From assembly GCA_019217005.1 (NCBI GenBank), contig JAHBNG010000045.1, forward strand, positions 36,886-100,885: a stretch of 64,000 nt of DNA, written 5' to 3'. The DNA comes from Chloroflexi bacterium TSY. Lineage in GTDB: Bacteria > Chloroflexota > Anaerolineae > Caldilineales > Caldilineaceae. The notes under the pieces are model-generated. The model ran no database searches. It was not told where the DNA came from and worked only from the letters and a program-made list of their open reading frames with translations. Shown in pieces: positions 5,681 to 61,953 of this stretch (its first letter is position 1; each line of letters starts with the position of its first letter). A program made the position numbers and the translations under genes.

Positions 5681-7215
5681 GCTAGCAGCTTGTCGGAGAG
5701 ACAAGGCTACCTGCATTTAGCAGCAAAGTGACACAACAAGGTGCGAAGATGGAGGTTGTCCGGCGTCATATTGACATAAAAGTAAAAAGTGGAGCCATAT
5801 TCGCCCGAAATTGGATTGCAGTTCCAGATAGTGGGCGCGCCAAATCAAGCAAGGGGTCCCACCTTATGAAGGCACTTCAAGTTGTAGGCAAGACAAACCA
5901 GATTCCATTCGCCAGCAGCAGCAGCTAAGCCGCGCAATGAAAACTGACGAAAGCCCATAACCTCTTTGATGATGCCGAAAACAGGTTCGACCGTACTTTT
6001 CCGTAGTTTGGATAGCGCTTTGCCAGCCTCAGTATTGAGTGCATAAATCATCTTGACAATGTGGTTGGCATTATCCGGTGGTGGCTCCAGTTCATGACCA
6101 AGAAGAGAATCTAAATCGAAATGATGACTATCGCGCCCTGTGGCAATATAAGGAGTGATGCCCCTCTCTTCCAACCCGTCAATGTTGGTTGGACTCATGT
6201 AGCCATTATCCAAAGCCGCCGCATCTGGTCTTCCCAACTCTTGGGGGATGGCATCTACAACGGGGATCGCCTCAAGCTTGTCATTGGGATGGTTAGAGAG
6301 GATGTTCCCGACAATCAGGCGACTCTCCTGGTCAACGTCTGCTTGTCCGTTGTAGCACTGCTCAAAGCCTTTCTTGTTGCCATTCTGCATAATTCGAGAA
6401 TCAGGGTCCGTGAAGTTGTATTGATCGTTCTCTCGGGGATCCTTTTGGGGCGGCTTGGGTTTGCGTCCCCGACTCTTCCTGCCTGTACGCTCTTCCTTTT
6501 CTTGCCGTGCCTTCAACTTTTCCTGGTATTCCGCTGCCGCAATCGCATCTCGTTCTGCGGCTCGTGCATCCAGAATCGCTTTAGCTTGAGCCAGATTCTT
6601 CAGCTTGCTCTGGCGTCTTTGGATTTCATTCTCAATGTCAAACTCATCATCTCTTCCATCCGCCTCTTCTGCAAGCTTAAACAATCGCTCTATCTCTGCT
6701 GTCAAACGTTCTTCCATTTGGCCGATTCGACCATAGCTTACTGCTTTGCTCTTCGAGGCATCCGCATGGACCTTCGTCTGCGCCAGCAACAACACTTGCA
6801 CAAACAACCCTTTCAGCTCTTCCAGCTTCTTTTTGCGAAACTCATTCAGCGTGTCATGATCTGGATTCATATTCCCTGCTATGTACCTATACGGGATCTG
6901 CTCATACGTCCCTTTTTCTATCCTGCGAGAGCTGTACGTCCCTGTCGCATATCCATACAACAACAAGCCCAACAACACTTCCGGCTCATATGCTATTCCC
7001 CCACGTTCACTGTATTTCCCATAGAGTTCGCTCAGCTCCAACAGACCCACTACTGTTACTATATATCTCGCCAAGTGATCCGCTGGCAGCGCTTCTCCCA
7101 GCTTGATTTCCAACTCTTCCGTCCCTTTATCGTCCGCTTTTTTGAAGTTTCGTTTCCTTTTCATTCTTTTACTTTACCACAGCTTGTCTTTTCTTTCTCT
7201 CCGACAAGATGCTAG
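5681..7215 (-). mobile_element. IS1182-family insertion sequence
   Basis: Inverted termini are GCTAGCAGCTTGTCGGAGAG at 5681 and the complement of TCTAGCATCTTGTCGGAGAG ending near 7215. They enclose one transposase gene. The element abuts and truncates the IS5 remnant. Its exact outer ends and target duplication were not resolved. Confidence 0.7.
5845..7164 (-). CDS. IS1182-family transposase, catalytic region shortened
   Basis: A 439-residue DDE transposase. It has an N-terminal DUF772-like helical region (EVLLGLLLYGYATGTYSSRRIE, then RYIAGNMNPDHDTLNEFRK), a charged coiled-coil insert (about 150-235) and the C-terminal DDE half (SRIMQNGNKKGFEQCYNGQ, ALDNGYMSP, STVEPVFGIIKEVMGFRQF). Family members normally have a strand with the first catalytic Asp (DGTK) just before HADASKSKAVSY. 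Here LLLAQTKVHADAS joins directly, so about a dozen residues including that Asp appear deleted without breaking the frame. Probably inactive. The long ORF on the opposite strand is a shadow. Confidence 0.8.
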   Translation of the reverse strand: MKRKRNFKKADDKGTEELEIKLGEALPADHLARYIVTVVGLLELSELYGKYSERGGIAYEPEVLLGLLLYGYATGTYSSRRIEKGTYEQIPYRYIAGNMNPDHDTLNEFRKKKLEELKGLFVQVLLLAQTKVHADASKSKAVSYGRIGQMEERLTAEIERLFKLAEEADGRDDEFDIENEIQRRQSKLKNLAQAKAILDARAAERDAIAAAEYQEKLKARQEKEERTGRKSRGRKPKPPQKDPRENDQYNFTDPDSRIMQNGNKKGFEQCYNGQADVDQESRLIVGNILSNHPNDKLEAIPVVDAIPQELGRPDAAALDNGYMSPTNIDGLEERGITPYIATGRDSHHFDLDSLLGHELEPPPDNANHIVKMIYALNTEAGKALSKLRKSTVEPVFGIIKEVMGFRQFSLRGLAAAAGEWNLVCLAYNLKCLHKVGPLA

Positions 7216-8151: not shown

Positions 8152-8471
8152 GTGCGACACGGCAAGCCGTGTGAGTAGCTGTTACCCAGTAGGACCAGAT
8201 GTAACCTGGTGTTCTGCCACCAGTACCCTACCAGAGCGTGCGTCGCTGGCAACGGCGGGGTGCGAAGCCTCTGGGACAATGTAGCCTCATCCGAAGCGGA
8301 TGGCAACGAAATCGCAAGAAGCCGTTGCGACGGCCAGCACCAAGGCGGTCGGGAGCTAGGGTCGAATGGCATGGTCAACAGATGTGAATCGCTGATAAAC
8401 GTCGTGAGTAGCACAAGCCAAAGGTGCTGATAGGCTTGAACCAAAAAGGTGTGTGGCCAGGAACAGGGGCT

Positions 8472-8477
8472 ACAGAA
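8472..8477 (+). other. EBS1 of group II intron A
   Basis: ACAGAA pairs perfectly with IBS1 TTCTGT (8146-8151), the last six bases of the 5' exon. It lies in the domain I region, about 320 nt into the intron, where EBS1 is expected. Confidence 0.65.
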
Positions 8478-8764
8478 TCTCCCGTCGCAGATGTTGCGCC
8501 ACCGGCGAAAAGGCGAGACCTACCCCATTCATCGGTACTCATTCGGAACGCGGTAAACCCGTCAGCCTCCCACTGGGAAAGCGAGCCGTGAGGCAAGCCG
8601 ATGGGACGGCGGGTAAAGGAGGATGGAGAAAGCGAATGCTGGCCTGTAATGGGCCAGATAGAGATTGCGCGACAACAACATTATCTCACACGAAAGTGGG
8701 CAGACTTCCATCTGGTATCTCATCACAAGAGAGTTTGGCAATCCGTCTCCGGAGGGAACGCAGG

Positions 8765-9166
8765 ATGACAGCAACAATGAATCGAGCAGTCCCGTTGATA
8801 GCTGACGCACCCTCACACGAAGCCGTGGCGTGGCACGCCATCAACTGGCGCAAAGCACCACGCAATGTGCGGCGGCTCCAAGCGCGTATTGTGAAAGCGG
8901 TGCGGGCAGGCAAATGGCATAAAGTGAGAGCCTTACAGCGTTTGCTGACCCGCTCATTTAGCAGCCGAGTGCTGGCTGTTAAACGCGTGACCGAAAACCG
9001 GGGCAAGAATACACCAGGGGTAGACAGCGAAATCTGGAATACCCCGCAACAAAAAGCCAATGGTGTGAAACGCCTCCAGAAACGACAGTTCAAAGCCAAA
9101 CCCCTCAAGCGCAAATACATTCCAAAGCCAGATGGCAAAAAGCGTCGTCCCCTAGGGATACCAATG
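8765..9166 (+). pseudogene. intron A reverse transcriptase, segment 1 (N-terminus to GIP motif)
   Basis: ATG at 8765 (AGG just upstream; a second ATG at 8777 is possible) begins MTATMNRAVPLIADA. It continues through WHAINWRKAPRNVRRLQARIVKA (RT domain 0), NRGKNTPGVD and KPLKRKYIPKPDGKKRRPLGIPM. The frame then enters recombinase element 1 and stops after VCA. Segments 2 and 3 complete the protein. The open frame upstream of 8765 is intron RNA and should not be counted as protein. Confidence 0.85.
9164..9166. other. left core of recombinase element 1 attachment site
   Basis: The trinucleotide ATG is repeated at 11886-11888. Collapsing the two copies joins CCA-ATG to ATT-GAC and restores G-I-P-M-I-D-R-A in the RT. 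The exact crossover dinucleotide (AT or TG) cannot be told. Confidence 0.65.
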
Positions 9167-9173
9167 GTGTGTG

Positions 9174-9187
9174 CATAGTGCACCTCC
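9174..9187 (-). promoter_or_regulatory. orphan ribosome binding site and ATG at the element 1 end
   Basis: On the minus strand GGAGG (9187-9183), six bases, then ATG (9176-9174) point outwards across the element end. In the integrated state this reads into RT antisense. In the circular form, 9167 would be followed by 11888-11886, and the frame ATG-CAC-ACA-CCA-TGC-AGG continues directly into the ORF that ends at 11557. Confidence 0.65.
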
Positions 9188-9203
9188 TACAAATAGAGTT
9201 GGG

Positions 9204-9240
9204 AATAAAGAAAAGGGCGAGTGTTGAATAGGACTCGCCC
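9204..9240 (-). terminator. intrinsic terminator of the recombinase operon
   Basis: On the minus strand GGGCGAGT and ACTCGCCC (8-bp stem, 10-nt loop) are followed by TTTTCTTTATT. It lies 6 bp beyond the recombinase stop codon. Confidence 0.85.
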
Positions 9241-9246
9241 ATTATA

Positions 9247-11349
9247 CTACGAAGAAGAGGAAGAGTCGAGGGTTTTGCGCCATCGCTGTTGAACGGGTTT
9301 GCGTAAGCGGTCAATAATCTCGGGAGTGAGTGTAATCCAGCGCGGTCCATGGGAATGCTCCTGGAGATAGTCGAGTTTACCGTCTTTACACCAAGCAGCA
9401 ATCGTCGAAACATTGACATTCAATAGCTCGGCGGCTTTGCGAGCAGAATAGCGACCATCGCCGCGTTGTCCATCTGGGCAAGCGGCGGGACCGACTAGGC
9501 AGTGGGAAGAAATGTGGTACTTATAGCGGAGCCAACTGACCATGCGATGGGTAAAGGGCAGACCGCGACCAGAGAGGCGTCCCTCTTGGTTGAGCTGGTC
9601 AGCAATTTGGCGGTCGGTATGGTCAGCGGCGAGGGTCCGAATGCGGTCGAGGATAGCAGTGGGCGTCTTGATGGCTTCACAAGAGGGAACCGGACGAGCC
9701 ACGGTCAACTCGGTGATAGCCTCGGTCTGCCAGCGGATGCCGATATAGACGGTGGTGTTGCGGCGAGCCAGGGTGACATCCTTGATAAGAAAGCGGAGCA
9801 GTTGTTTGCGTGCGGTCTGCTGCGTTGTGGGCGCACGCCAAATGCGAGGCAGGTCTTGTGCCAGATCGAGGATACGTTGTCGTTGTTCAAGTGTAGTCAA
9901 TAAGGCAGTTGGCTTGGGCAGAGATGCGAATTCTCGTTCCAGACGTTGGACAGCGGTGAGTTTTTCGTTCCACTCGCGTTCAAGGGTGCGAGCCACGAGA
10001 CGATTCTCGGGTTCGACAGCCATAAAGCGGCGTCGGGCCAGATCGGCTTCGTATTGTGCACGCTCGATACGCAAGTGCCACTGCTGTTCAAGTTGCTGTT
10101 GCCGTGTCTCCATCTGCTCAATAGTAGCCAGTGAGATCTCTAACTGAGCAGGCTGCATCGCCTCGAGAAAAGTCTGCGCAACTGCCTTGTCAATGGCCGT
10201 CCCGCGTAGCGAGAGACAGGTCTTGGCCGCATACTGAGCGTGGAGTTGGCTGCAGGTGTAGGTAGGTGTCTGAGCATCGTAGTAACGCACGGACATGCGT
10301 CGTCCGCAGCGACCACACAAGACAATGCCTTGGAGCAAGGCAGCACCCTCGCGGACCACGCCGCGCTGTGCTTCCGCCCGATAGGTCCGGTTATCATCGA
10401 GCGTCTGTTGGTTTTGCTGGAATTGTGCCCAAGTGATATAGCCAGGATGGGCATCATGAATGAGCACCAACCAGTCATCCCGTTTCCGCTGTGTTGTTCG
10501 CCCTTTGATGTACGGTGTCTCACCAGGCAGCAGTTGGGTGCGGGTTTGAGTCCGACCATAGGTATAGGCGCCGGCATAAGTGGGATTATGCAAAATGGCC
10601 AACACACGACCGTGGTTTAAGGGTCGCCAGTCGAGTTCTCCATCCCGCACACCACCCCAGTGTCGAGTGGGAAAGAGCAAGTCATGGTCAGCGAAATACT
10701 GCACAACAGCCAGGGCAGAACGCAACATCTCAAAGCGGGTGAACAGAAGCCGCACGGCGGATGCGACCTGTTCATCGGCATCGAAGACGATGCGCTGCGC
10801 AGAGTCATACATATAGCCCGTGGGCAAACGGAAGCGCAGTTCGCCCTTTTGGGCTTTGACCAGCTTGCCACCTTGAAGACGATTCCGAATCCAGTGCAAT
10901 TCTGCTTCGCTCATGGCCCCTTTGAAGCCGAGGAGAATGCGGTCATTGTAGTCGCTGAGATCATAGATCCCTTCTTCATCAATGACCAGCGTATCGGTCA
11001 AGCGGCAGACTTCCATGAGACGATGCCAATCGCTTGAAGAGCGAGCCAGCCGCGACACTTCGAGACTGAGTACAGCACCGGCATGACCAAGCCCGACCTC
11101 AGCAAAGAGCCCTTGAAAACCGTCCCGATAGTGAGCCGATGCACCAGATTGTGCTTGGTCCTGGTCGACCATGATGATTTGTTCCTTGGACCAACCTAAC
11201 GCACAGGCTCGTTGGACAAGATCGTACTGGCGCTCAGTACTACCGGTATTGTAACGGACTTGTGAGAGGGTTGACTGGCGTACATAAATGAAGGCCTGAC
11301 GCTCAAGATGGCCGGCTTGAATCTTGTTGGGTATTCGTTCGATTGACAT
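9247..11349 (-). CDS. large serine recombinase (integrase), element 1
   Basis: 700 residues. The resolvase domain starts at about residue 18 (AFIYVRQSTLSQV, with the nucleophile probably Ser26), followed by SRLARSSSDW and the E-helix region LLGFKGAMSEAELHWIRNR. A recombinase domain spans about 180-300 (AILHNPTYAGAYTYGR). A zinc ribbon follows (CGRCGRRMS, with further Cys to about 385), then a coiled coil, and a C-terminal extension with an excisionase-like helix-turn-helix (YSARKAAELLNVNVSTIAAWC). GGAGG lies 7 bases before the ATG. It should catalyse integration and excision of its own element. It overlaps the upstream 69-codon ORF by 47 bp, implying one transcript. It appears intact, so the element may still be mobile. 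Confidence 0.9.
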   Translation of the reverse strand: MSIERIPNKIQAGHLERQAFIYVRQSTLSQVRYNTGSTERQYDLVQRACALGWSKEQIIMVDQDQAQSGASAHYRDGFQGLFAEVGLGHAGAVLSLEVSRLARSSSDWHRLMEVCRLTDTLVIDEEGIYDLSDYNDRILLGFKGAMSEAELHWIRNRLQGGKLVKAQKGELRFRLPTGYMYDSAQRIVFDADEQVASAVRLLFTRFEMLRSALAVVQYFADHDLLFPTRHWGGVRDGELDWRPLNHGRVLAILHNPTYAGAYTYGRTQTRTQLLPGETPYIKGRTTQRKRDDWLVLIHDAHPGYITWAQFQQNQQTLDDNRTYRAEAQRGVVREGAALLQGIVLCGRCGRRMSVRYYDAQTPTYTCSQLHAQYAAKTCLSLRGTAIDKAVAQTFLEAMQPAQLEISLATIEQMETRQQQLEQQWHLRIERAQYEADLARRRFMAVEPENRLVARTLEREWNEKLTAVQRLEREFASLPKPTALLTTLEQRQRILDLAQDLPRIWRAPTTQQTARKQLLRFLIKDVTLARRNTTVYIGIRWQTEAITELTVARPVPSCEAIKTPTAILDRIRTLAADHTDRQIADQLNQEGRLSGRGLPFTHRMVSWLRYKYHISSHCLVGPAACPDGQRGDGRYSARKAAELLNVNVSTIAAWCKDGKLDYLQEHSHGPRWITLTPEIIDRLRKPVQQRWRKTLDSSSSS

Positions 11350-11512
11350 GGGTGACCTCCAGTGTGGATTCAGCGGATTGCATTTTGAGAAGATTGAAGG
11401 CTAACTCGGCCATGAACTGAATGGCTTTGCGGCGACGTTCTGCGCAAAGACAGGCCCATACCTGCGTGGGCAAGATCGCATCGGGGGGCGGCTTTGATTG
11501 ATGTGGCATCAC
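11303..11512 (-). CDS. small protein of recombinase element 1
   Basis: 69 residues (GTG at 11512, or ATG at 11509, preceded by AAGGAG at 11523-11518). The core PTQVWACLCAERRRKAIQFMAELAFNLLK is an amphipathic helix pair. It lies between the DUF5372-like ORF and the recombinase and overlaps the latter. From memory, short proteins of this type accompany this recombinase class; a role in directionality or regulation is only inference. Confidence 0.6.
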   Translation of the reverse strand: MMPHQSKPPPDAILPTQVWACLCAERRRKAIQFMAELAFNLLKMQSAESTLEVTHVNRTNTQQDSSRPS

Positions 11513-11556
11513 ATGTGCTCCTTATGGACTCATCGAGGAAGGAAATGTTGATGATA

Positions 11557-11888
11557 TCAATCATAGCCCACCTCCTCCGTCCAGCCGCTTGCCGACTGTT
11601 GCCACTCCGCAATGAATTGGGCTACTTGGCATAGGCCAGCTATGTCCAGTAGGTGTCTCTGGGGATGGTCTTGCGCTGCGCTTGCCCCTGCATAATCTGT
11701 ACAGCTCATGGCGATGGCCGTGTGGAAGCCGTCTGGGTGACGGATGATGAGGTCCGGATCTTCGCCTCGACGCAGGCGAATCACTTCAACTTGTTGACCA
11801 CAGAGTGGATGGTGGGGATGGGTAATTCTGATGTATCCCGAAGACAATTGGCATTGTTGGGTAGTTTGCTCTGAGCATTCCCTGCATG
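11557..11888 (-). CDS. DUF5372-like small protein, start codon supplied only in the circular form
   Basis: The recognisable part RITHPHHPLCGQQVEVIRLRR, then LIIRHPDGFHTAIAMSCTDY, resembles DUF5372 proteins that, as I recall, accompany serine recombinases in transposon-like elements. Inside the integrated element the frame has no ATG and no ribosome binding site; it simply runs out into antisense RT sequence. Joining the element ends puts the GGAGG plus ATG at 9187-9174 in frame, giving M-H-T-P-C-R-E-C at the N-terminus and about 113 residues in total. The stop at 11557 is 44 bp before the next ORF of the operon. Confidence 0.6.
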
Positions 11889-12213
11889 ATTGACCGGGCG
11901 TACCAAGCCTTACACCTTCTAGCTTTGGACCCAGTGGCCGAAACGATGGGCGACCCAAACTCCTATGGATTTCGGAAAGGTCGCGCCGCAGCGGACGCCA
12001 TCGAGCAGCTCTTCTTGCGGTTGTCGCCCAAGAATGCCGCTCAATGGATACTGGAGGGCGATATCAAGGCGTGTTTCGATGAATTGTCGCATGACTGGTT
12101 AGAAGAGCACATTCCCACGGATAAGCGGAGCCTCCGAGCATGGCTGAAGGCAGGATACATGGAGAAGGATGTCCTCCATCCGACAGAGACAGGCTCGCCC
12201 CAAGGCGGGATAA
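11886..12213 (+). pseudogene. intron A reverse transcriptase, segment 2
   Basis: IDRAYQALHLLALDP, then SYGFRKGRAAADAIEQLF, WILEGDIKACFDELSHDWL and ETGSPQGGI are RT motifs 1-4 of the group II intron class. The segment starts at the repeated ATG core and breaks at GSPQGG-I where recombinase element 2 is inserted. The short tail RAPPTMLQTM in the open frame belongs to that element. With segments 1 and 3 it forms a 571-codon ORF (402 + 325 + 989 bp without duplicated cores). Confidence 0.85.
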
Positions 12214-12224
12214 GAGCGCCTCCA

Positions 12225-12238
12225 ACAATGTTGCAAAC
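12225..12238 (+). other. recombinase arm site, left end of element 2
   Basis: ACAATGTTGCAAAC, 11 bp inside the TAA core, is the exact reverse complement of 14184-14197, which lies 8 bp inside the other core. In the circular junction the two would flank the core symmetrically as an inverted repeat, the layout expected of an attP. Confidence 0.65.
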
Positions 12239-12374
12239 AATGTGATAGACTACTCGATAAGGGTACCGCGCAAGCGGTTGCGCCCGAACTATGGTGATGG
12301 ATTCCATCCGATGAATGCCACGCCATCATCTCCCGAACAAGAAACCAACAGTCAAAAAGGAGAATGCAATCGAG

Positions 12375-12575
12375 ATGAGTCGACCACAACGAGACCCAAG
12401 TAAATGGCGGGTAAAACGCACCTTCGAACCGAATCGACTGTCATTGAACCATTTGGAAGCAGCCTACGCCCAAATCGTGCCAATCCAGAGTCGCATCCTG
12501 CGTTCAAGGACGCCCCAAGCGAGTTCGAGCAAGCAAGCGGCCAGCGCAGTCCGCCAAACAAGGAGAGCGGGATGA
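12375..12575 (+). CDS. small protein upstream of recombinase 2
   Basis: 66 residues, MSRPQRDPSKWRVKRTFEPNRLSLNHLEAAYAQIVP, then a basic tail. AAGGAG lies 12 bases upstream of the ATG, which is long but usable. The WRVKRTFEPNRLS block resembles short ORFs I recall preceding this recombinase type. The stop codon overlaps the recombinase ATG by four bases, indicating translational coupling. Confidence 0.6.
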   Translation: MSRPQRDPSKWRVKRTFEPNRLSLNHLEAAYAQIVPIQSRILRSRTPQASSSKQAASAVRQTRRAG

Positions 12576-14314
12576 GCGATCTACAAGTTGCCCTATATGC
12601 CCGTGTCTCTAGCGACCAGCAAGCGGAAGCTGGCACGGTGGCAAGTCAGATCAGTGCCTTGCAGGAGCGAATCGAGCAGGATCGTTTAGTCCTGGCCGCT
12701 GAACTGACCTTTATCGATGACGGCTACAGTGGTGCCACGCTGATTCGTCCCGCACTTGAGCAACTGCGGGATGTCGTTGCGCTACAGGGCATCGACCGAG
12801 TGTATGTCCACTCGCCCGACCGTCTGGCGCGCAAATATGCGTATCAGGTCTTGCTCCTCGATGAATTTCAGCGCGCCGGTGTCGAACTCGTCTTCTTGAA
12901 TCGAGAGTTAGGCCAAAGTCCGGAAGATGACTTGCTCCTCCAAGTACAAGGAATGATGGCCGAGTACGAACGAGCGAAAATTCTGGAGCGCCACCGCCGC
13001 GGGAAATTGCATGCTGCACGCACGGGGAACGTGGCGGTCCTCTCCGGTGCGCCCTATGGCTATCTCTATGTGAGCAAGCAGGATGGTGGCGGTCAAGCTC
13101 GCTATGAGATCATCCTCGATGAAGCCCGCGTTGTGCGGCAGGTTTTCCACTGGGTCGGCCACGAGAGAGTCTCCATCGGCGAAGTTGCGCGGCGTTTACA
13201 GGCGGCAGGTGAACGGACGCGCTCGGGCAAAACGACCTGGGACCGGACAACGATTCAAGGCATGCTCAGAAATCCTGCCTATAAGGGACAAGCGGCTTTC
13301 GGCAAGACTAAAACCGAACCCATGCGCCCCAAACTGCGTCCACAACGAGGCGATCCAGCGATTCCCAAACGACCCGTTTCCACGGTTAATGTCCCACAAG
13401 AGGAATGGCTTTACATCCCGGTGCCACCCCTCGTCAGTGAAGCACTCTTTGATACTGTCCAGGAGCAACTTGAAGAGAACCGGCGCCGTGCCCGTCAGCG
13501 CAAACGAGGGGCCAGTTATTTACTCCAAGGACTCCTCGTCTGTGCAGACTGTGGCTATTCTTTCTATGGCAAGCCGGTTAGCCGCAAATCGGCCAAGGGC
13601 AAGACCCGCCGTTATGCCTACTATCGATGCATCGGGACCGATGCCTATCGTTTCGGCGGTGAACGCATTTGTCATAATCTTCAGGTACGCACCGATCTGC
13701 TTGAAAACATGGTCTGGGATGAGGTCTGTGCTTTGCTCAATGATACAGCGCGGGTTGAACGAGAATATCAACGGCGCTTGCAAGCACCTGCGAAAGATAA
13801 TGATGATCTCGACGTCACCAACCGCCAACTCGCTAAAATCAAGCAGAGTATTGCCCGTCTCATTGACACCTATACCGATGGCTTCATCGACAAGGATGAG
13901 TTTGCGCCGCGTATCAGACGGCTTCGCCAACGTCAGTCCGACTTGGAAGAGAAACTGCAAAAACTCAACCAAGAACTCAGCCAGCAACAACAACTCCGTC
14001 TACTCATCACACAACTAGAAGACTTTGCTGCCAAAGTCACTGAAGGGCTTGACACCGCCGACTGGCAGACCAAACGCGAGATTATTCGCATGCTTGTTCA
14101 GCGCATTGAAATTGCCCAAGACGATGTCAACGTCGTCTTTCGCATCCCTTCCTCCCCTTTTGAACTCAGCCCCGAAAGGGGCGGTTTGCAACATTGTAGT
14201 AATTGTAATCTCCCCAGCGGTGGCCAATCTGGCTCTCGATGGGTTGGAAACGCTTCTCTATCGAACCTTTTCAAGTCGACGTGGCTTACGGATTCATTTG
14301 ATAAGGTACGCTGA
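12572..14314 (+). CDS. large serine recombinase, element 2
   Basis: Start chosen at 12572 (AAGGAG, six bases upstream). Resolvase domain VALYARVSSDQQ (nucleophile probably Ser13), then YVHSPDRLARKYAYQ and MMAEYERAKILERHRRGK; recombinase domain with IQGMLRNPAYKGQA (about 235-250); zinc ribbon CADCGYSF with a later Cys pair; coiled coil to about residue 500; and a conserved-looking tail VVFRIPSSPFELSPERGGLQHC. The tail overlaps the arm site. The gene has no stop inside the element: in the integrated state it reads through the core into RT codons in another frame and ends at 14314, so the last 35 or so residues are host-derived. In the circle it would continue to 12403. Confidence 0.88.
   Translation: MSDLQVALYARVSSDQQAEAGTVASQISALQERIEQDRLVLAAELTFIDDGYSGATLIRPALEQLRDVVALQGIDRVYVHSPDRLARKYAYQVLLLDEFQRAGVELVFLNRELGQSPEDDLLLQVQGMMAEYERAKILERHRRGKLHAARTGNVAVLSGAPYGYLYVSKQDGGGQARYEIILDEARVVRQVFHWVGHERVSIGEVARRLQAAGERTRSGKTTWDRTTIQGMLRNPAYKGQAAFGKTKTEPMRPKLRPQRGDPAIPKRPVSTVNVPQEEWLYIPVPPLVSEALFDTVQEQLEENRRRARQRKRGASYLLQGLLVCADCGYSFYGKPVSRKSAKGKTRRYAYYRCIGTDAYRFGGERICHNLQVRTDLLENMVWDEVCALLNDTARVEREYQRRLQAPAKDNDDLDVTNRQLAKIKQSIARLIDTYTDGFIDKDEFAPRIRRLRQRQSDLEEKLQKLNQELSQQQQLRLLITQLEDFAAKVTEGLDTADWQTKREIIRMLVQRIEIAQDDVNVVFRIPSSPFELSPERGGLQHCSNCNLPSGGQSGSRWVGNASLSNLFKSTWLTDSFDKVR
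14184..14197 (+). other. recombinase arm site, right end of element 2
   Basis: GTTTGCAACATTGT, reverse complement of 12225-12238. It overlaps the recombinase codons for G-L-Q-H-C, so protein sequence and DNA site are constrained together. Confidence 0.65.
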
Positions 14315-15197
14315 CGACTTTGTGATAACAGGAACCACCAAAGCGGTTCTTGAAGAAGAAGTGATGCCACTCGTGCAAGCCTTTCTCCACGAGCGGGGTC
14401 TCACACTTTCACCGGAAAAGACGACCATCTCCCACATCAATGATGGCTTTGACTTTCTCGGCCAGAACGTTCGCAAATACAACGGCAAACTCCTTATCAA
14501 ACCATCGGCCAAAAGCCAACGAACACTGCTCGACAAGGTGCGAACCATTCTCAAGACCGAAGGTCGATACCTCTCTGCCTACGGTCTGATCATGAAACTC
14601 AATCCGGTTATCCGGGGATGGGCTAACTACCATCGACACGTCGTCAGTAAACAGGTCTTTGCCGATATCGACCACCACATTCACTGGGCACTCTGGCGAT
14701 GGGCGAAGCACAAACATCCTCAGAAATCCCCTGGCTGGATTCAACAGAAGTACTTTGACGGTCAAGACGGTCAACGAAATGTCTTCCACACGCACACGGC
14801 CGATAAGGACGGCAAACGGGTAACCACTCGGCTTTTCCTAGCCGCTAAGTTACCGATTCGTCGCCATATCAAGATTCGCAACACCGCGAATCCCTATGAC
14901 CCAGCCTGGGAACTCTATTTCGAAGAACGGCAATACCGCCAAACGCTAACTGATTTCTGGGACCGTTCCTGGTTTAAACATCTCTGGACCAGAGAACGGG
15001 GACTCTGTCCGGTTTGTGGGGAACTCATCACGAGGCAAACTGGCTGGCACAATCATCACATTCATTGGCGGGTCTACGGCGGCAGTGACGACTTGGACAA
15101 TCGAATATTGCTCCATCCCAACTGCCACCGACAGGTTCACAGTCCCGATTACAACGGTCCACCGCTGCGTCCTTCTCTTGGCGTCCGAGATGCTTGA
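14209..15197 (+). pseudogene. intron A reverse transcriptase, segment 3 (YADD, maturase, HNH)
   Basis: Resumes ISPAVANLALDGLE, then LIRYADDFVITG (catalytic YADD), LTLSPEKTTISHINDGFDFLG (RT 6-7), maturase domain X (GLIMKLNPVIRGWANYHRH), and a C-terminal HNH endonuclease with CPVCGELI, NHHIHWRVYGGSDDLDN and HPNCHRQVHS. Catalytic residues are all present, so the protein would look functional if the two insertions were removed. The open frame before 14209 is recombinase-element sequence. Confidence 0.88.
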
Positions 15198-15215
15198 GCC
15201 GTATGCGGGGTAACT
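15196..15215 (+). ncRNA. intron A domain V, 5' half
   Basis: GAGCCGTATGCGGGGTAACT. With CGTACGGGCGGTTC (17659-17672) it makes 34 nt with the usual lower helix, 2-nt bulge, four-pair upper helix (CGGG/CTCG) and a GTAA (GNRA) tetraloop. One A-G mismatch sits in the lower helix. Confidence 0.75.
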
Positions 15216-15748
15216 GTGCGCCGTGGTACGCACTGAGAGAATTGCTACTGGAAGTAGCCGGCGTTCAGGGTAAATGACGCCGAGACGAACAACTAACCTG
15301 GACCTGAAAAGGCGAGGGGACAAGAGCATGTATGTAAAGCGGGGAACGGCAGAAGGCGTGTATGCTAGGCAGCCCCGCAACGTCTGTGTGATAAGGCTAG
15401 AGCTATACTGCCCAAATCCCAATGTCCAGTGGTGAAACCGTACACTCATCGGTAGCACGCCTGTACACCGATGCCATCCATAGCTGCGAAGCGAGTTTCA
15501 TTCGTGGTACACCCTGATGGATGGACGATGCGTAGTGAACGCATTCAAGGGCATGAGTGGGGAGCCTAAGTTGCGCTAGAACGTTCCTCAGTGACGGAAC
15601 ACGGGATCGTCTACGGGACGCGAGTCCTATGATGACGGAGTTCTGATAGTAGTCGTGCGAGTCACGCCGCACCAGGGAGACGGTAACACCGATTACAGGG
15701 CGAAGCAGAACAGATGTCCTTGATGTCAAAGACCATGAGGTATGCGAA

Positions 15749-17560
15749 ATGCAGAGAGCCGAAACGGTATTGAACATCATTTGAGAACGCGGAAAACGTA
15801 GATTGCCGCTAAGGCAACTGTATCGACAGCTTTACAATCGAGAGTTGTACCTTTGCGCCTATGGCAAACTATACGCCAATAATGGTGCAATGACACCTGG
15901 CACAACACCAGAGACTGTAGATGGAATGTCGTTAGCGAAAATCGACCACATCATTGAGCTACTGCGCAATGAAAGATATCGATGGACGTCAGTCCGACGC
16001 ACATACATACCCAAAAAGAATGGCAAATATCGCGGCCTTGGTATGCCGACGTGGTCGGATAAATTACTTCAAGAAGTGATACGCTTATTGTTGGAGGCGT
16101 ATTACGAACCGGAGTTCAGCGAACATTCCCACGGGTTCCGGCAAGGGCGAGGATGTCACACGGCGTTACAAGAGATAATGGGGAAATGGCAAGGTGTAAA
16201 GTGGTTTATCGAGGGCGATCTCCACGCTTGTTTCGACAATATCAACCATATGATTCTGTTGAACATCCTACGTGAGAAGATTCATGACAATCGATTCATC
16301 CGACTCATTACAAATCTCTTAAACGCTGGATACTTAGAAGAATGGCACTATCACACGACCTATAGCGGAGTTCCGCAAGGCGGTGTGGTCAGTCCCATGC
16401 TTTCTAATCTAGTGCTAGACCGATTAGACAAATTTGTCGAACAGACGTTTATAGCTGCATATACATGTGGGAAGCGAAGAAAAACGTATCGACCTTATGC
16501 CGCATTGACAATGAGAGCCAGTGTAGCACGGCGGAACAATGATTATGTAAGGGCTAAGGAATTTAGCCAACAAGCGCAAACCATGCCATCCCGAGACCCT
16601 AATGACCCCAATTTTCGTCGCCTACGATACTGCAGGTACGCTGATGACTTCATTCTGGGATTCACTGGTCCAAAGGCAGAAGCGGAAGATATCAAAAGGC
16701 AACTCTCGCAGTTTCTACAAGAAGAGTTGAAGCTTGAACTGAACGATGAAAAGACTTTGATCACTCATGGACGCGAAGGCAAAGCTCGCTTTCTCGGCTA
16801 TGATATTCATGTTCTACACGCTGATGATAAGCATGATGGGCGTGGTCAAAGGTGCGTCAATGGCGGTATTGGCCTGCGTGTTCCTGAAAGTATTATTCAA
16901 TCTCATTGTCAAAAGTACATGCGGAACGGAAAACCAACTTATTTGCCACAGAGGACCATCGATGATGCTTATAGTATAGTCACTCAATACCAAGCAGAAT
17001 ATCGAGGCATTGTTCAGTACTATAAGCTGGCCTACAACCTCCATCAACTCGACCGACTGAAATGGGTGATGGAAACCTCTCTCACCAAGACATTAGCGGA
17101 AAAGTACAAGACTACTCGGCGGAAAATATACAAGAAGTACCGGAAGACTATCCAAAATGAGTATGGCACATACAAGGGGTTGGAGGTAACTTTAGACCGC
17201 GGTCCTGACAAGAAACCGCTTGTGGCACAATGGGGTGGTATACCTCTCCAATGGAACAAATGGGTAGCGCTCAATGATACTCTACATCAGCCTATTTGGA
17301 GTGGACGCACTGAACTAGTTGACCGACTTCTAGCACAACAATGTGAGTTATGTGGTGCAATGGACAATATCGAAGTCCATCACATTCATAAACTCAAAGA
17401 CCTAGACAAACATGGCCATTCAGAGACACCACAGTGGGTACATCGAATGGCTGCCCGACGACGCAAAACGCTAGTCGTCTGTCAACCATGTCACAATGAC
17501 ATTCACTATGGTCGATACGATGGACCTTCTCTCGAAATAGGACATGGGAAAGCCACGTGA
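15749..17560 (+). pseudogene. intron B reverse transcriptase/maturase-HNH with in-frame TGA
   Basis: The family N-terminus is recognisable from ATG 15749 (GAGG eight bases upstream): MQRAETVLNII-stop-ERGKRRLPLRQLYRQLYN. The TGA at 15782-15784 stands where CGA (Arg) would be expected. Translation could also begin at the TTG at 15803. The rest is complete: GDLHACFDNI, SGVPQGGVVSPMLSNL, LRYCRYADDFILGF (catalytic), domain X, and a C-terminal HNH (CELCGAMDNIEVHHIHKLKDL, then CQPCHNDIHYG). The call of pseudogene depends on that single codon; read support would decide. Confidence 0.75.
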
Positions 17561-17584
17561 GACGGAAACGCTCATGCGTGGTTT
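17550..17584 (+). ncRNA. intron B domain V
   Basis: AAGCCACGTGAG, a GGAAAC-type loop and CTCATGCGTGGTTT form the domain V hairpin with the AGC triad and a two-base AT bulge on the 3' strand. It starts before the RT stop codon, so coding and ribozyme sequence overlap by about 10 nt. Confidence 0.8.
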
Positions 17585-17658
17585 GGAGGGGGGCGATTGG
17601 AATAGCGTTTGTCGGCAACGCGCAAGTCCACAAATGGCTCGCTGGTCGCCTACCCTAC

Positions 17659-17672
17659 CGTACGGGCGGTTC
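17659..17672 (+). ncRNA. intron A domain V, 3' half
   Basis: CGTACGGGCGGTTC completes the domain V begun at 15196. It is followed by TGAGGAGAGGGGG and the domain VI hairpin, ending at 17713. Confidence 0.75.
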
Positions 17673-17713
17673 TGAGGAGAGGGGGTGAGGGCCACCTCAC
17701 CTTCTTATCCGAC

Positions 17714-46878: not shown

Positions 46879-48512
46879 GGGCTGGTTCAGAAATAGGTTG
46901 ACAAAGAAGAGAGTACGTTAACAAGAGAATAGGTTAGAGAAAGAGGCTCCTGTTCAGGCAAAATAAGGGTGTTCAGACCAAAATAGCCAAAAAGGAGCCT
47001 CTAAATGTCAGAGTATCGAACAGACCCCCTATCATTGTCAACCCGAATCGATCTTGCGTTGGAAATGCTCAACCCGAATCGAGAGTGGGGGAGAGTGAGC
47101 GAACTGTCAACGGCGTACAATGTGTCTCGAACGTGGCTCTATAAGTTGAGAGAGAGCGGTGAAGCGGCGCTGAAAGCGATCTTGTCGCCAGTGAGTCCAG
47201 GACCGCAGCCGAAAAGCCATGTGATCGAAGTGGATGAGACGTTCATCCGACGAACCATAACGGTGTTGCCGATGCTGCGAGGAAGCGTACGAGATATCCA
47301 AAGGGGGTTGGGGTTGCTGCTAGGTGTGGAGCGGTCGGTGGGATTCATCCAAGGGACGCTGGCGGAAGTTGGAGAACTGGCATCGGCGTACAATGAGAGC
47401 ATGGTGCCGACGCTGCCGGTGTTGGGGGAAGCGGATGAAATTTTCTGTGGCGACCAACCGTGCCTGACGGTGGTGGACGGAGCATCGTTTGCGCTGTTGA
47501 ATATCTCAGCAGCCGATGCCCGAGATGAAACAACATGGGGGGTTGAAGTTTCTCGAATTGCTCGAGCGAGGCATCACCTTTGATGACTTGGTGACCGATG
47601 GGGCTTTGGGCATTCAGGCAGGAGCCAAGGCAGCGGGGATGAATGCGCCACACTCCTATGACCTCTTTCACCAAATGCAGAATGGCACCAAAATCACCCA
47701 ACGTCTGGAGAGAGAAATGGACCAGGCCATGACCGACCGTGACGTAGCTTGGCAAGAGTTGGACGAGCAGACTGCTCCTGCACGTCGCCCTGGGCGACCA
47801 CGCAAATGCACAGTGACTCTCGAGGTTGCCGACCAAACGGTGCTGACAGCAGTTGACTTGCACGAGAACTGGACATGGCTTCTCCGAACGGTCCGTCAGG
47901 CACTGGAGCCGATTTCACCGACCGGGCAGCTTGTCAACACAGATGCCGCGCAACAAACCATTCTGGCTGCCACCCAACTTATGATGGAGATGAACCGCGA
48001 TGAAATTGCACACTTTGCCACCCAACTGCAGCAGAATCTACCTACATTGCTGGCTCCCCTCCGCCAGAACCTCTCACCTGAGTACGAAGCCTTCATCACA
48101 CACCTCTGGACTTATCGCCATGACCATCAACTTCCCATTGAACAGCTTTTCCCTCCCTCATTGCAGCCTATGGCTCTTGCCTTCTGGCATGCACTGGATC
48201 GCTTCCATCGGGCTTCTTCTCTAGCTGAATCCTTTCATGCTTGGCTCAGGCCCTTTCTTGCAATCCATCGCTCTTTGCCCGATTGGTTGGCCGCTCTTTA
48301 CAGCTCTTTTGGAATCATCGCACCTTCTCACGTGGCAAACGCTCCGGTCACTCACCCTTAGAACTGGCTACCGATTCCTATGTCTCTTCTTTGGCTGACG
48401 CCCTTGATGCCATTCTTCAGCCTCAACAGCAACTGGCTCTTTAACCTATTCTCTTTTTAACGTGCCCATTTCAATTTTGTAAACCTAACTCATCCCTTGT
48501 TCTGAACCTGCC
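46879..48512 (+). mobile_element. DDE insertion sequence with MITE-like ends
   Basis: Ends GGGCTGGTTCAGAA and the complement of GGGCAGGTTCAGAA, with AGGTTTACAAAA just inside the right end; 8-bp target duplication TTTAAAAG (46871-46878, 48513-48520). Length 1634 bp. The terminal sequence and 8-bp duplication match the 155-bp MITEs at 20289 and 59687. Confidence 0.9.
47005..48444 (+). pseudogene. DDE transposase of an unassigned (ISNCY-like) family, two frameshifts
   Basis: Frame 1 (47005-47583): helix-turn-helix EWGRVSELSTAYNVSRTWLYKLRES and VIEVDETFIRRT, then EADEIFCGDQPCLTVVDGASF (likely catalytic Asp). Frame 2 (to 48361): TFDDLVTDGALGIQAGAKAAG (second Asp), a long helical region and RASSLAESFHAWLRPFLAIH (Glu). 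Frame 3 (to 48444): NHRTFSRGKRSGHSPLELA. Breaks are near 47530 and 48300, the first within a G run. ATG follows AAAAAGGAG. One conserved ORF is implied if the indels are errors. Confidence 0.7.
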
Positions 48513-48627: not shown

Positions 48628-49834
48628 TTATACGCGAACGAGAGAATGGAGAGGGGGAATAAGGACAAACCATTTTTCTAAACCAGGTAAACGTTGGAAG
48701 CGTTGTTCCAAACGGTCCATCTCTTTCTGAGTGAGTTTGACGCCGGTCTCATAAAGAGTGGAATTCAGGTGAACGAAGGGTTGTAGTTGGTTAAAGCGAA
48801 AAGAACGGGCAAAATTGAGAACGGTCTCAAGAGAATCGAGAAGAGAACCGTTCCAGTGTTTTTCAAGATGGCCCCAAACCCGTTCGATGGGGTTGTATTT
48901 ACTGTGATAAGGAGGGTAGCAGGCGAGCTGAATAGAGAGACGATAGTGCTCAACAAACTGAGTGAGACGATACATAAACTGAGTCCGACGGGTATGATTT
49001 TCGGGACCATTGTCCTGATTGATCACGAGGGTCTTGACGTGAGGAAAGTGTTCACGTACGCTTTCCCAAAAATCAATCAGGCAGTCGACAATAAAGTCAC
49101 TAGTCACTTTCGACTGAGTCAAGTAAAGAAAGAGTTCCTTGGTTGAAGGGAGGTAAATGCCAAAAGGAGTGACTTTCTCGGTCTTCTTATCTTGAAAGTC
49201 ATGATCGAGCGCTTTGACAACCACTCGACTTATCCCTTCTCTCGAGAAACGGTCAAGTAAAATCGTCGCTTTGGCATCCCAAGAGAGGCGCAGAACCGTC
49301 TCGTCTGCATCCGCTTCTTGATTGATCTGATGAATTCTATCAAAGATCGCATCGGTCTCTGGGATCTTTTTCACTGGTTGACTTTTTTGACCCGGTTTGA
49401 GCCATAGCCTAACTCATTGAGCTTCAAGCGGATGGCCTCTTCGCCAGGCAATTCCTCATCTGTGTATCCTTTCTGCTCGATGAGCTGGGTACGCATTTCG
49501 GCGGCGGTTAGTCGAGTGTACAATTGGGGGGGTGGGATCGGTCTGGCTGAATTGATCGGCGATTTCAACCATATCGGCCAGTAAAGTGGGGATATGGTCT
49601 TCGGCTTTTGCGACCACGTCGGTGGCTTTGGTCGACATAACAGAAGCCGCCTTCTAGTTCTTCCAGGGCTTTGGCTATCGTCGCCCGATTCCAGCCCAAC
49701 TCTCGTTCTGCTTTCGTCGGACTCCCTTCGCATATCGTTTTGACCGTTTGGGCCATGAAGTGCCTTCTTTCGTATCCACTTAACATGGCCTTCGTCTCTT
49801 TCAAGACTTCAACCATTTCTGGCGAGATTGTCAT
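48628..49834 (-). pseudogene. ISAzo13-like transposase, copy 2
   Basis: The best-preserved copy: 48628-49374 encodes 248 continuous residues covering all three DDE motifs (LSWDAKATI, VINQDNGPEN, KYNPIERVWGHLEKHWNG). The N-terminal ORF (49565-49834) and a linker frame (49371-49733) are out of phase because of C-run differences (CCCC near 49592 and a G run near 49530). Copy 3 joins these same segments in one frame, giving the consensus PYPTLLADMVEIADQFSQTDP. Confidence 0.8.
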
Positions 49835-54742: not shown

Positions 54743-54920
54743 AAACAACTCACTTTATGAAAAAGAATGGTTCTTCCGGAATAGAGGGGGCGGAACTTCC
54801 CGGAAGAGGTAAAGAAGAGTCTCGTTGACGACCTCATGCCTGACCTCTTCCTGTTAGGTAATATAGGAAAGGGAGATAAAATAAGGGAAGGCAAAAGCAA
54901 GGAAAGCCGAAACTTATTGG

Positions 54921-55040
54921 ACTCTCGACCTGGCAAAAAGGACCAACCTCTTCGAGCGGTGCGACCGCCCTTCCCGGACAGTCCGCCAGGTCGACGCCGT
55001 GCAACGTCGAAAGCGTGCAGCACCTCGAGTGCCATAACAG
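54921..55040 (+). ncRNA. candidate bridge RNA of the IS110-type element
   Basis: Upstream of the transposase a strongly structured stretch: GACCTGGC (54927-54934) pairs with GCCAGGTC (54985-54992); inside, GCGGT-GCG-ACCGC forms a hairpin; next, TCGACG and CGTCGA (54991-55010) form another. IS110 elements encode a bridge RNA in a non-coding end that guides recombination. Position and structure fit; the guide loops were not matched to flanks. IS1111-type elements usually carry it downstream, which counts against this placement. Confidence 0.4.
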
Positions 55041-55103
55041 GAAAACGGAAAACAGCGTCCAAAGTTGAGGAGCTCAGGCGATACGGGAGAGGAGGTCCCA
55101 AGA

Positions 55104-56323
55104 TGAAAGTGAAAATGGGAATCGACTGGAGTGAAAAGAAACATGATGTGATGATGTTGGATGAGACAGGACGAGCGCTGGGCTATGCGCAGATAGAGCA
55201 TAGCCAGAAGGGATTTCGCCAAATTGAAGAAATGAGAAAGAAGACAGGAGCGAGCCATGATGAAGTGACAGTGGGACTGGAAACAGCGCATAATTTGCTG
55301 ATTGATTATCTCTGGTCGAGCGGGTACAAGAATGTCTATGTGGTGCCGCCGAATGTGGTGAACAAGAGTCGGGAGCGCTATAGTCAAAGTGGTGCGCATA
55401 ATGATAAGAGTGATGCCTATGTGATAGCAGATTTGTTGCGGACCGATGTCCATCGATTTTATCCTTGGTCACCTGGCAGTGAATTACTCCAGCAGATGCG
55501 AGTGGTCAGCAGTGCCACACAATACTGGACCAAAGAGACTGTGGCCTTATCCAACCGTCTGCGCGCTTGCCTGTTGCGTTACCATCCGGCGCTGCTTGAG
55601 GTCTTCAGCAACTGGCCTTCTCGGATTGCCTGCCACCTGGTTCTGACCTATCCAACGCCAGAGCATGTGCGCAACTCCACCTATGAAGGCTTCCAAGAGT
55701 TTCTCAAGCAGCACCGACATACGCAACCCCGTAAATGGGTCACTTGTTATGATAAGTTAACCGCCACTTATCCCACATCAGCTCCTGCATTTGTGCCAGC
55801 GTATCAACGAGAAGCTCTTCAGCTGGCTGAATGTCTTTTGCTTGCACTGCGCTATGAACAAGAGACCCTTGACCAGTTACAGTCACTTTTTCTGCAACAT
55901 CCGGATCAGCATATCTTTGCTTCTTTACCTGGTGCTGGCCAGCTTTTAGCTCCCAGTCTTCTGGTCAAGTTTGGCGAAGACAGGAAACGCTTTCCCTCTC
56001 CCATGAGCCTTCAGTCTCTGGCGGGAACCTGTCCTGTCACCAAACAAAGTGGCAAAGTCAGAACCGTTCATTTCCGCAGAGCTTGCGATCACGACTTTCG
56101 TTATTTTACTCAGCAATTTGCTCGCTGCTCCCGCAAAGAGTCTTCTTGGGCCGCTGCTTTTTACACCGCCGCTCGCCAACGCGGTCTCAAAAAGAGTCAT
56201 GCTGATCGCACTCTCGCTAATCGCTGGATTTGCATCATTTGGAAATTGTGGCAAGACAAGAAACCTTATGATGAATCTTTCCATTTGCAGCAACGAGCCC
56301 ATCGTCGCCAACCTATCGCTTAA
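55104..56323 (+). CDS. IS110-group transposase (DEDD)
   Basis: 406 residues from MKVKMGIDWSEKKHDVMML (55104, GGAGG eight bases upstream; longer upstream frames are non-coding end). RuvC-like DEDD residues: Asp in GIDWSE, Glu in VGLETAH, and DKSDAYVIADLL. C-terminal Transposase_20 domain with LPGAGQLLAPSLLVKFG and SLAGTCPVTKQSGK, the latter near the catalytic serine region. Appears intact. Confidence 0.9.
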
Positions 56324-60858: not shown

Positions 60859-61953
60859 GGCCAATCAAAAAATAAAAATATACGCGAGAAGGTGTTAAAC
60901 TAGCTCTCCAAAAGGAGCAAAAATGACAATCTCGCCAGAAATGGTTGAAGTCTTGAAAGAGACGAAGGCCATGTTAAGTGGATACGAAAGAAGGCACTTC
61001 ATGGCCCAAACGGTCAAGACGATACATAAACTGAGTCCGACGGGTATGATTTTCGGGACCATTGTCCTGATTGATCACGAGGGTCTTGACGTGAGGAAAG
61101 TGTTCACGTACGCTTTCCCAAAAATCAATCAGGCAGTCGACAATACAGTCACTCGTCACTTTCGACTGAGTCAAGTAAAGAAAGAGTTCCTTGGTTGAAG
61201 GGAGGTAAATGCCAAAAGGTGACTTTCTCGGTCTTCTTATCTTGAAAGTCATGATCGAGCGCTTTGACAACCACTCGACTTATCCCTTCTCTCGAGAAAC
61301 GGTCAAGTAAAATCGTCGCTTTGGCATCCCAAGAGAGGCGCAGAACCGTCTCGTCTGCATCCGCTTCTTGATTGATCTGATGAATTCTATCAAAGATCGC
61401 ATCGGTCTCTGGGATCTTTTTCACTGGTTGACTTTTTTTGACCCGGTTTGAGCCATAGCCTAACTCATTGAGCTTCAAGCGGATGGCCTCTTCGCCAGGC
61501 AATTCCTCATCTGTGTATCCTTTCTGCTCGATGAGCTGGGTACGCATTTCGGCGGCGTTAGTCGAGTGTACAATGGGGGGTCGAAAGGTGGGATCGGTCT
61601 GGCTGAATTGATCGGCGATTTCAACCATATCGGCCAGTAAAGTGGGATATGGTCTTCGGCTTTTGCGACCACGTCGGTGGCTTTGGTCGACATAACAGAA
61701 GCCGCCTTCTAGTTCTTCCAGGGCTTTGGCTATCGTCGCCCGATTCCAGCCCAACTCTCGTTCTGCTTTCGTCGGACTCCCTTCGCATATCGTTTTGACC
61801 GTTTGGGCCATGAAGTGCCTTCTTTCGTATCCACTTAACATGGCCTTCGTCTCTTTCAAGACTTCAACCATTTCTGGCGAGATTGTCATTTTTGCTCCTT
61901 TTGGAGAGCTAGTTTAACACCTTCTCGCGTATATTTTATTTTTTGGATTGGCC
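60859..61953. mobile_element. ISAzo13-like copy 3, rearranged head-to-head
   Basis: Both ends are the same (left) IS end: GGCCAATC at 60859 and the complement of GGCCAATCC at 61953. The first 162 bp read forward, then at about 61015-61020 (ACGATA, shared by both partners) the sequence switches to the interior of the IS in reverse. It is therefore a truncated inverted dimer, not a simple insertion. Confidence 0.85.
61149..61889 (-). pseudogene. ISAzo13-like transposase, copy 3
   Basis: 246 continuous residues, N-terminal HTH through LSWDAKATILLDRF, then KTEKV; the continuation to NQDNGPEN is in another frame (60974-61270) and the C-terminal third with the catalytic Glu is missing at the fold point. 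Useful because it joins in one frame the segments that are out of phase in copies 1 and 2. Confidence 0.75.

Follow-up and report, generated by a model that had tools for sequence, protein, structure and literature searches.

How did a single group II intron come to hold two serine-recombinase elements and a second group II intron? The arrangement lies in a stretch of 64,000 nt, called the window here, from Chloroflexi bacterium TSY (assembly GCA_019217005.1, contig JAHBNG010000045.1, positions 36,886 to 100,885 of the forward strand). The host, intron A, encodes a reverse transcriptase (RT) that is split at its conserved GIP motif by an element carrying the large serine recombinase LSR1 and at its PQGG motif by an element carrying LSR2, and its domain V is split by intron B. 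Relatives of both recombinases occupy the same conserved RT codons in unrelated bacteria, which makes it likely that the LSR1 and LSR2 elements are parasites specialised on other mobile DNA. Very probably, they are small serine-recombinase elements that use, as their attachment site attB, a conserved codon motif in the enzymes of other mobile elements, GIP for LSR1 and PQGG for LSR2; each recombinase likely recognises its RT codons as attB, since relatives sit at the same motif elsewhere.

The nest and its rejoined reverse transcriptase gene

A preliminary description of this DNA, made from its letters, proposed a four-element nest within one intron, and Rfam and Pfam features together with the rejoined RT gene bear this out. 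The Pfam order along the window is N-terminal RT domain, LSR1 (reverse strand), LSR2 (forward strand), RT core with maturase and HNH domains, and the RT of intron B. Both LSR1 and LSR2 have the N-terminal resolvase, Recombinase and zinc-ribbon domains (PF00239, PF07508, PF13408), and the best named relatives of the window RT and recombinases are from Chloroflexota. Intron A and its two recombinase elements comprise the following features.

8152 to 17713, forward strand: group II intron A including its inserts, 9,562 bp, start GTGCGAC and end CCGAC, ends placed by motif
8765 to 9160, forward strand: intron A RT piece 1 (PF13655 RVT_N, 1.1e-32), which stops at the GI codons of GIP
9161 to 9162, forward strand: left CC core of element 1, in the Pro codon of GIP, with a 21-nt arm ending TGCAC
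9163 to 11881, reverse strand: element 1, 2,719 bp counting one CC; its removal gives the ungapped 572-codon RT, and the same junction is found in relatives
9247 to 11349, reverse strand: LSR1, large serine recombinase of 700 amino acids (PF00239, PF07508, PF13408)
11557 to 11881, reverse strand: DUF5372-type accessory open reading frame (ORF) (PF17342, 3.2e-07, residues 45-93); the mechanical ORF, 11557-11958, overruns the element
11880 to 11881, forward strand: right CC core of element 1, following a 21-nt arm
11882 to 12212, forward strand: intron A RT piece 2, the stretch from GIP to PQGG
12213 to 14207, forward strand: element 2, 1,995 bp; rejoining restores PQGGIISP, and the crossover is set by symmetry
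12225 to 12238, forward strand: left 14-bp inverted repeat of element 2
12575 to 14314 (alternative start 12404), forward strand: LSR2, large serine recombinase of 579 codons from 12575 (PF00239, PF07508, PF13408)
14184 to 14197, reverse strand: right 14-bp inverted repeat of element 2
14208 to 15197, forward strand: intron A RT piece 3, with RT core, maturase and HNH domains (PF00078, PF08388, PF01844)

Intron A has the parts of a group II intron, namely domains D1-D4 (8205-8356; Rfam RF02012, 121.5 bits), D5 and D6, described below, and intron-encoded RT and maturase domains, the latter in pieces. Without its inserts it measures 2,405 bp.

Crossovers at CC (9161-9162/11880-11881) and at a symmetric dinucleotide (12213-12214/14208-14209) yield an RT of 572 codons that reads GIPCMIDRA and SPQGGIISP and aligns gap-free with all four relatives compared (P0241, P0242, P0244 and P0245). 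The closest of these, P0241, is an uninterrupted gene whose product is 87.6% identical to the rejoined RT, again ungapped, so that relatives free of insertions, sought by the preliminary description, do exist; intact relatives of the intron A RT, up to 87-88% identical over 572 residues, carry GIPC-IDRA-type and SPQGGIISP motifs. That description had instead placed the crossovers at 3-bp cores and arrived at an RT of 571 codons and elements of 2,722 and 1,998 bp. Taken literally, the cores ATG and TAA leave 570 codons, or 571 if one TAA is kept, and these versions need two gaps and one gap, respectively, against each of the four relatives. The CC and the symmetric dinucleotide replace them here, and the corrected lengths are 2,719 bp for element 1 and 1,995 bp for element 2; intron B stays at 2,443 bp, as described before. 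The expected empty sites are GGGATA-CC-CTGCATG for element 1 and GGCGGGATAATCTCC for element 2.

Recurrence of both recombinase families at conserved codons

The RT is split at GIP in 12 loci of LSR1 homologues, from 10 genomes or plasmids, and in every one of them element and RT are antiparallel, as in the window. Large serine recombinases have 2-bp cores, and both junctions of element 1 share such a core between symmetric arms. A CC core flanked by 21-nt arms (GTGCA.../...TGCAC) recurs in 18 of the 19 readable LSR1-type junctions, a count that includes both window junctions and leaves out a second candidate arm in L140 (without GTGCA, core AA). This CC makes up the first two, invariant bases of the GIP proline codon. 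On a tree of the 66 LSR1 loci with at least 400 residues each, the GIP label needs only 2 changes (mean of shuffled labels 11.2; as low in none of 500 shuffles), and the window and 11 GIP loci fall into one group of 14 with an SH-like approximate likelihood ratio test (SH-aLRT) value of 88. Another RT motif, DIK..FD, is split by LSR1-type elements in L169, L178, L181 and L007. Genes for DUF5372 or Y4bD/Y4pK proteins adjoin the LSR1 homologues in L134, L135, L137 and L139. The viral contigs held two distant LSR1 relatives (L081 and L082), with no RT adjoining, and no LSR2 relative.

Element 2 ends in inverted repeats that are perfect over 14 bp (10 bp at most in 300 shuffles of both ends) and sit 10 nt inside the crossover on both sides. 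LSR2 reads 35 codons into the RT gene, and element 2 contains no stop codon for it. The C-terminal tails of LSR2 homologues are likewise translated host sequence at the insertion site and reveal what each element is inserted in. From 119 homologues, 20 tails shorter than 9 residues were dropped. Among the 99 readable tails, 77 fit RT at PQGG, 29 of them forward (+1 frame) and 48 antisense, and 22 do not fit; 500 shuffles gave a mean of 3.7 fits and a maximum of 10. Since the tail patterns were composed after the tails had been inspected, loci in DNA were required as a check.

A scan of one genome per species supplied 80 LSR2 loci. An RT profile finds RT in 33 of these, 32 of which are split at profile positions 234-250, PQGG being position 238. 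The 32 loci come from 29 genomes, four of them from one genome, and include all of the first 15 by rank; the junction of L042 runs into undetermined bases (Ns), and without it the count is 31 of 80. By record title the hosts are Planctomycetota, Chloroflexota, Cyanobacteriota, Acidobacteriota, Actinomycetota, Pseudomonadota and others, with individual phylum assignments being soft because most of the genomes are metagenome-assembled genomes (MAGs). The junction DNA reveals common element ends, short inverted repeats and both orientations; in L005 and L006, near-identical LSR2s are oppositely oriented in different RTs. The crossover centre is often AT, and GT and CT also occur; the arm-symmetry offsets are uninformative and play no part here. 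On a tree of 65 of the 80 loci, each with at least 350 residues, the PQGG label needs 11 changes, whereas shuffled labels need 22.0 on average and as few in none of 500 shuffles; L002, with a frameshifted RT, was labelled PQGG by hand. The recurrence of the same split points in unrelated genomes makes the arrangement more than chance.

The two elements also occur together elsewhere. L004, a contig of another Chloroflexota MAG, carries an LSR1 element at GIP and an LSR2 element at PQGG in one RT, so that this arrangement is of a recurring type and no unique event. In L007, an Acetobacteraceae MAG, an LSR1 relative at DIK and an LSR2 at PQGG have an RT stretch between them. L010, a candidate for a further double insertion at GIP and PQGG, was not counted: its LSR1 relative lies outside the GIP clade and the junction on the GIP side is mismatched. 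Parts of group II ribozymes lie beside the split RT in 12 of the 17 loci scanned, matching several different D1-D4 models; the interrupted RTs are thus those of group II introns.

Outside RT genes, the flanking ORFs match transposase families most often, among many other families. One set of 123 flank ORFs gave 7 matches to Transposase_mut and 6 to IS66, another of 140 gave 8 to IstB, 6 to Mu-transpos_C_2 and up to 9 to short helix-turn-helix (HTH) models; these tallies count matching ORFs, not loci, and take in non-mobile families, and a closer Pfam look at 30 chosen flank ORFs left 15 without any family. Single loci are more telling. Pieces of an IS5-type transposase, split before VERTFAWL, flank LSR2-type elements in L024, L029, L037 and L063 and LSR1-type elements in L144 and L146, which suggests that the two families converge on one IS5 transposase motif. 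IS256-type transposase pieces lie on both sides of LSR2-type elements in L059 and L067, and pieces of a Tn5-like transposase on both sides in L141. Ordinary genes adjoin some loci, such as an aminotransferase at L145 and a hydrolase at L171.

Proposed integration and the alternatives

We propose that an excised circle carrying attP would recombine with the codons of the RT gene. LSR1 would cross over at the CC of the GIP Pro codon, between the 21-nt arms; LSR2 would do so within the codon that follows PQGG-I/V, at a dinucleotide (often AT) placed symmetrically between the inverted repeats. The single orientation of LSR1 elements follows from the CC core, which is non-palindromic; the frequent AT centre may account for the two orientations of LSR2, though the GT and CT centres leave this unsettled. 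Insertion should silence the intron's own RT and would deprive the intron of its mobility. Intron RT genes make abundant, safe and durable targets: they are mobile, they occur in many copies, the cell can do without them, and their motif codons are under constraint.

Several observations weigh against dedicated targeting of RT codons. Of the 80 LSR2 loci, 48 lack such a split (47 without RT match and L031 with an unsplit RT), as do 52 of the 66 LSR1 loci on the tree at these sites; among LSR1 plasmid loci, of which 6 were fetched from 40 listed (550 matched), 4 are at GIP and 2 elsewhere. The remaining members of the GIP clade, the identical pair L158/L180, lie outside any RT. The cores are not uniform either: L157, the closest LSR1 relative with DNA, has CT on the left, only 6 of the 10 two-sided LSR2 loci outside the window have the same dinucleotide left and right, and that of element 2 itself is AG on the left and AT on the right. 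Finally, several loci nearly duplicate one another or share a genome, and the tail patterns were, as mentioned, chosen post hoc.

The many relatives of both recombinases outside RT genes would fit three unrelated insertions, in which generic mobile elements with loose targets met by chance in one intron, and so would the varied 5' flanks of intron B relatives. Yet chance does not predict exact recurrence at the same codons or a target that clusters on both trees, and no RT piece adjoins any of 27 distant serine recombinases (L107-L133; flanks of 1.5 kb). We regard this explanation as improbable overall: it is already disfavoured for elements 1 and 2 and may be right for intron B. The independent insertion assumed by the preliminary description may hold for intron B, which looks like a one-off, and not for elements 1 and 2, whose families recur at the same RT codons. 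The grouping of recombinase relatives by target, with some loci near-copies, would also be expected if each recombinase had entered an RT once and then spread as intron cargo or through gene conversion. Such co-inheritance seems quite improbable, as LSR2 occurs in both orientations, even with the near-identical recombinases of L005 and L006 opposed, the host introns match differing D1-D4 models, and members sit within transposase genes.

Exact removal of the elements would give an intact 572-codon RT, and LSR1 and LSR2 are both full-length and carry the domains expected of them. This would suit a regulated or developmental switch, with excision under some condition restoring the RT, comparable to the skin element of sigK. 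However, no directionality factor was found, and the same elements in many unrelated RT and transposase genes fit a parasite better, making a switch very improbable. An assembly artefact is least probable of all, in that the window junctions are codon-exact and like junctions are present in plasmid loci (L135-L137) and a chromosome (NZ_CP021659) whose records are titled complete.

Parasitism of other mobile DNA by the LSR1 and LSR2 elements may be one case of something broader. We lean, by a small measure, toward a widespread guild of small serine-recombinase elements that preys on mobile elements, the attB of each lineage being the codons of a conserved replication-enzyme motif. The targets would include GIP, DIK..FD and PQGG in group II intron RTs, the VERTFAWL region in IS5 transposases, conserved stretches in IS256 and Tn5-like transposases, and even another recombinase gene. 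A change in such codons would kill the host element, so the target could not escape; several parasites could stack in one enzyme gene, as in the window, and the guild would serve as a natural check on group II introns. If so, group II introns and insertion sequences (IS) have a class of natural enemies with target sites that are hard to mutate, serine recombinases with a defined natural attB in conserved codons are at hand, and the interruption of so many intron RTs gains an explanation that can be tested. Fragments of RT, transposase and recombinase genes that are annotated as decay may then be occupied attachment sites.

Intron B, known systems and further observations

Intron B contains a D5-D6 region (17548-17658; RF00029, 49.1 bits) and an intact RT/maturase, as expected of a group II intron, and lies between the two parts of intron A domain V, making the pair a twintron (an intron within an intron).

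15196 to 15215, forward strand: intron A domain V, 5' 20 nt
15216 to 17658, forward strand: group II intron B, 2,443 bp, start GTGCGCC
15803 to 17560, forward strand: intron B RT, 585 amino acids, with maturase and HNH domains (PF00078, PF01348, PF21368)
17659 to 17672, forward strand: intron A domain V, 3' 14 nt
17674 to 17713, forward strand: intron A 3' end with the domain VI region; the 40 nt up to 17713 fold at -23.7 kcal/mol

The split of a 34-nt domain V at 15215, reported previously, is confirmed, with 20 and 14 nt on the two sides. Rejoined, the halves fold with -16.4 kcal/mol (z -3.75), and the assignment of D5 in intron A rests on this folding, as the Rfam D5 model cannot score a split D5. 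Intron B was also considered as a domain-V specialist, but at 30 loci of related RTs, some of which yielded no 5' candidate, none of the 5' candidates listed follows a domain-V half. Since the 5' flanks of its relatives vary, its position in domain V looks incidental and, among the relatives examined, like a one-off. With its domain V split, independently of the other insertions, intron A should splice only once intron B is out; splicing of intron B first would restore domain V, after which a maturase acting in trans would be required for intron A. It is plausible that the fate of intron A would hinge on element excision and prior splicing of intron B. In L197, RT coding sequence that starts at the FDHINHD motif follows an intron-B-type group II intron.

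Nesting of this kind has precedents. The nested introns of Methanosarcina acetivorans and the bacterial twintrons are group II introns inside group II introns (PMC4424553, PMC4649490), and twintrons are also treated in the part of PMC3534033 available. Intron B within intron A is of the same kind; as far as the accessible text of these papers goes, those cases are intron-in-intron only, and the inner intron of Trichodesmium lies in domain I instead of domain V (PMC4424553, PMC4649490). According to the available portion of PMC2882425, introns of Thermosynechococcus elongatus insert at conserved sites in the RT ORFs of other introns or in IS, and in TeI4g::ISEL2f an insertion element breaks up one RT ORF. 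The likeness is mobile DNA at conserved sites of intron RT ORFs. There, by the same portion, the conserved-site invader is an intron whose target lies between two start codons, and ISEL2f is a single case (PMC2882425), whereas in the loci described here serine-recombinase DNA elements recur at conserved RT motif codons.

RmInt1-type introns insert into IS transposase genes. As in the window, one mobile element exploits a conserved site in another, but the direction is reversed, since here a DNA element invades an intron RT. Diverse large serine recombinases are known to converge on one conserved host-gene site (PMC10083194); in the available text of that paper the targets are cellular genes (magnesium chelatase/protease, prolyl isomerase and competence genes) and the term 'reverse transcriptase' is absent. 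The y4b-type repeat of NGR234 (L139) has a recombinase 44% identical to LSR1, a DUF5372 accessory gene and small ORFs; this copy differs in lying outside RT genes, and no paper on the repeat was found in the open-licence literature. In the same literature, to the extent of its available text, no description was found of recombinase elements that specialise in the RT codons of introns.

Some further arrangements involve both families. In L085, L100 and L093 (genome G004), an LSR1-type gene is broken near residue 140 by another LSR1-type copy. The inverted-repeat flanks of L158 and L180 extend past the aligned element ends. In Candidatus Fukatsuia symbiotica (L023, L064 and L075), and also in L012, LSR2-type elements lie between two N-terminal or two C-terminal RT halves, face to face; the facing halves in Candidatus Fukatsuia symbiotica suggest inversions between copies.

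No drug-resistance gene was noticed among the listed ORFs of the window, though no window-wide scan for such genes was made. Further IS-transposase-like ORFs or remnants lie at 5845-7164, by Pfam, and, by eye, at 47005-48361, 48628-49374, 54836-56323 and 61149-61889.

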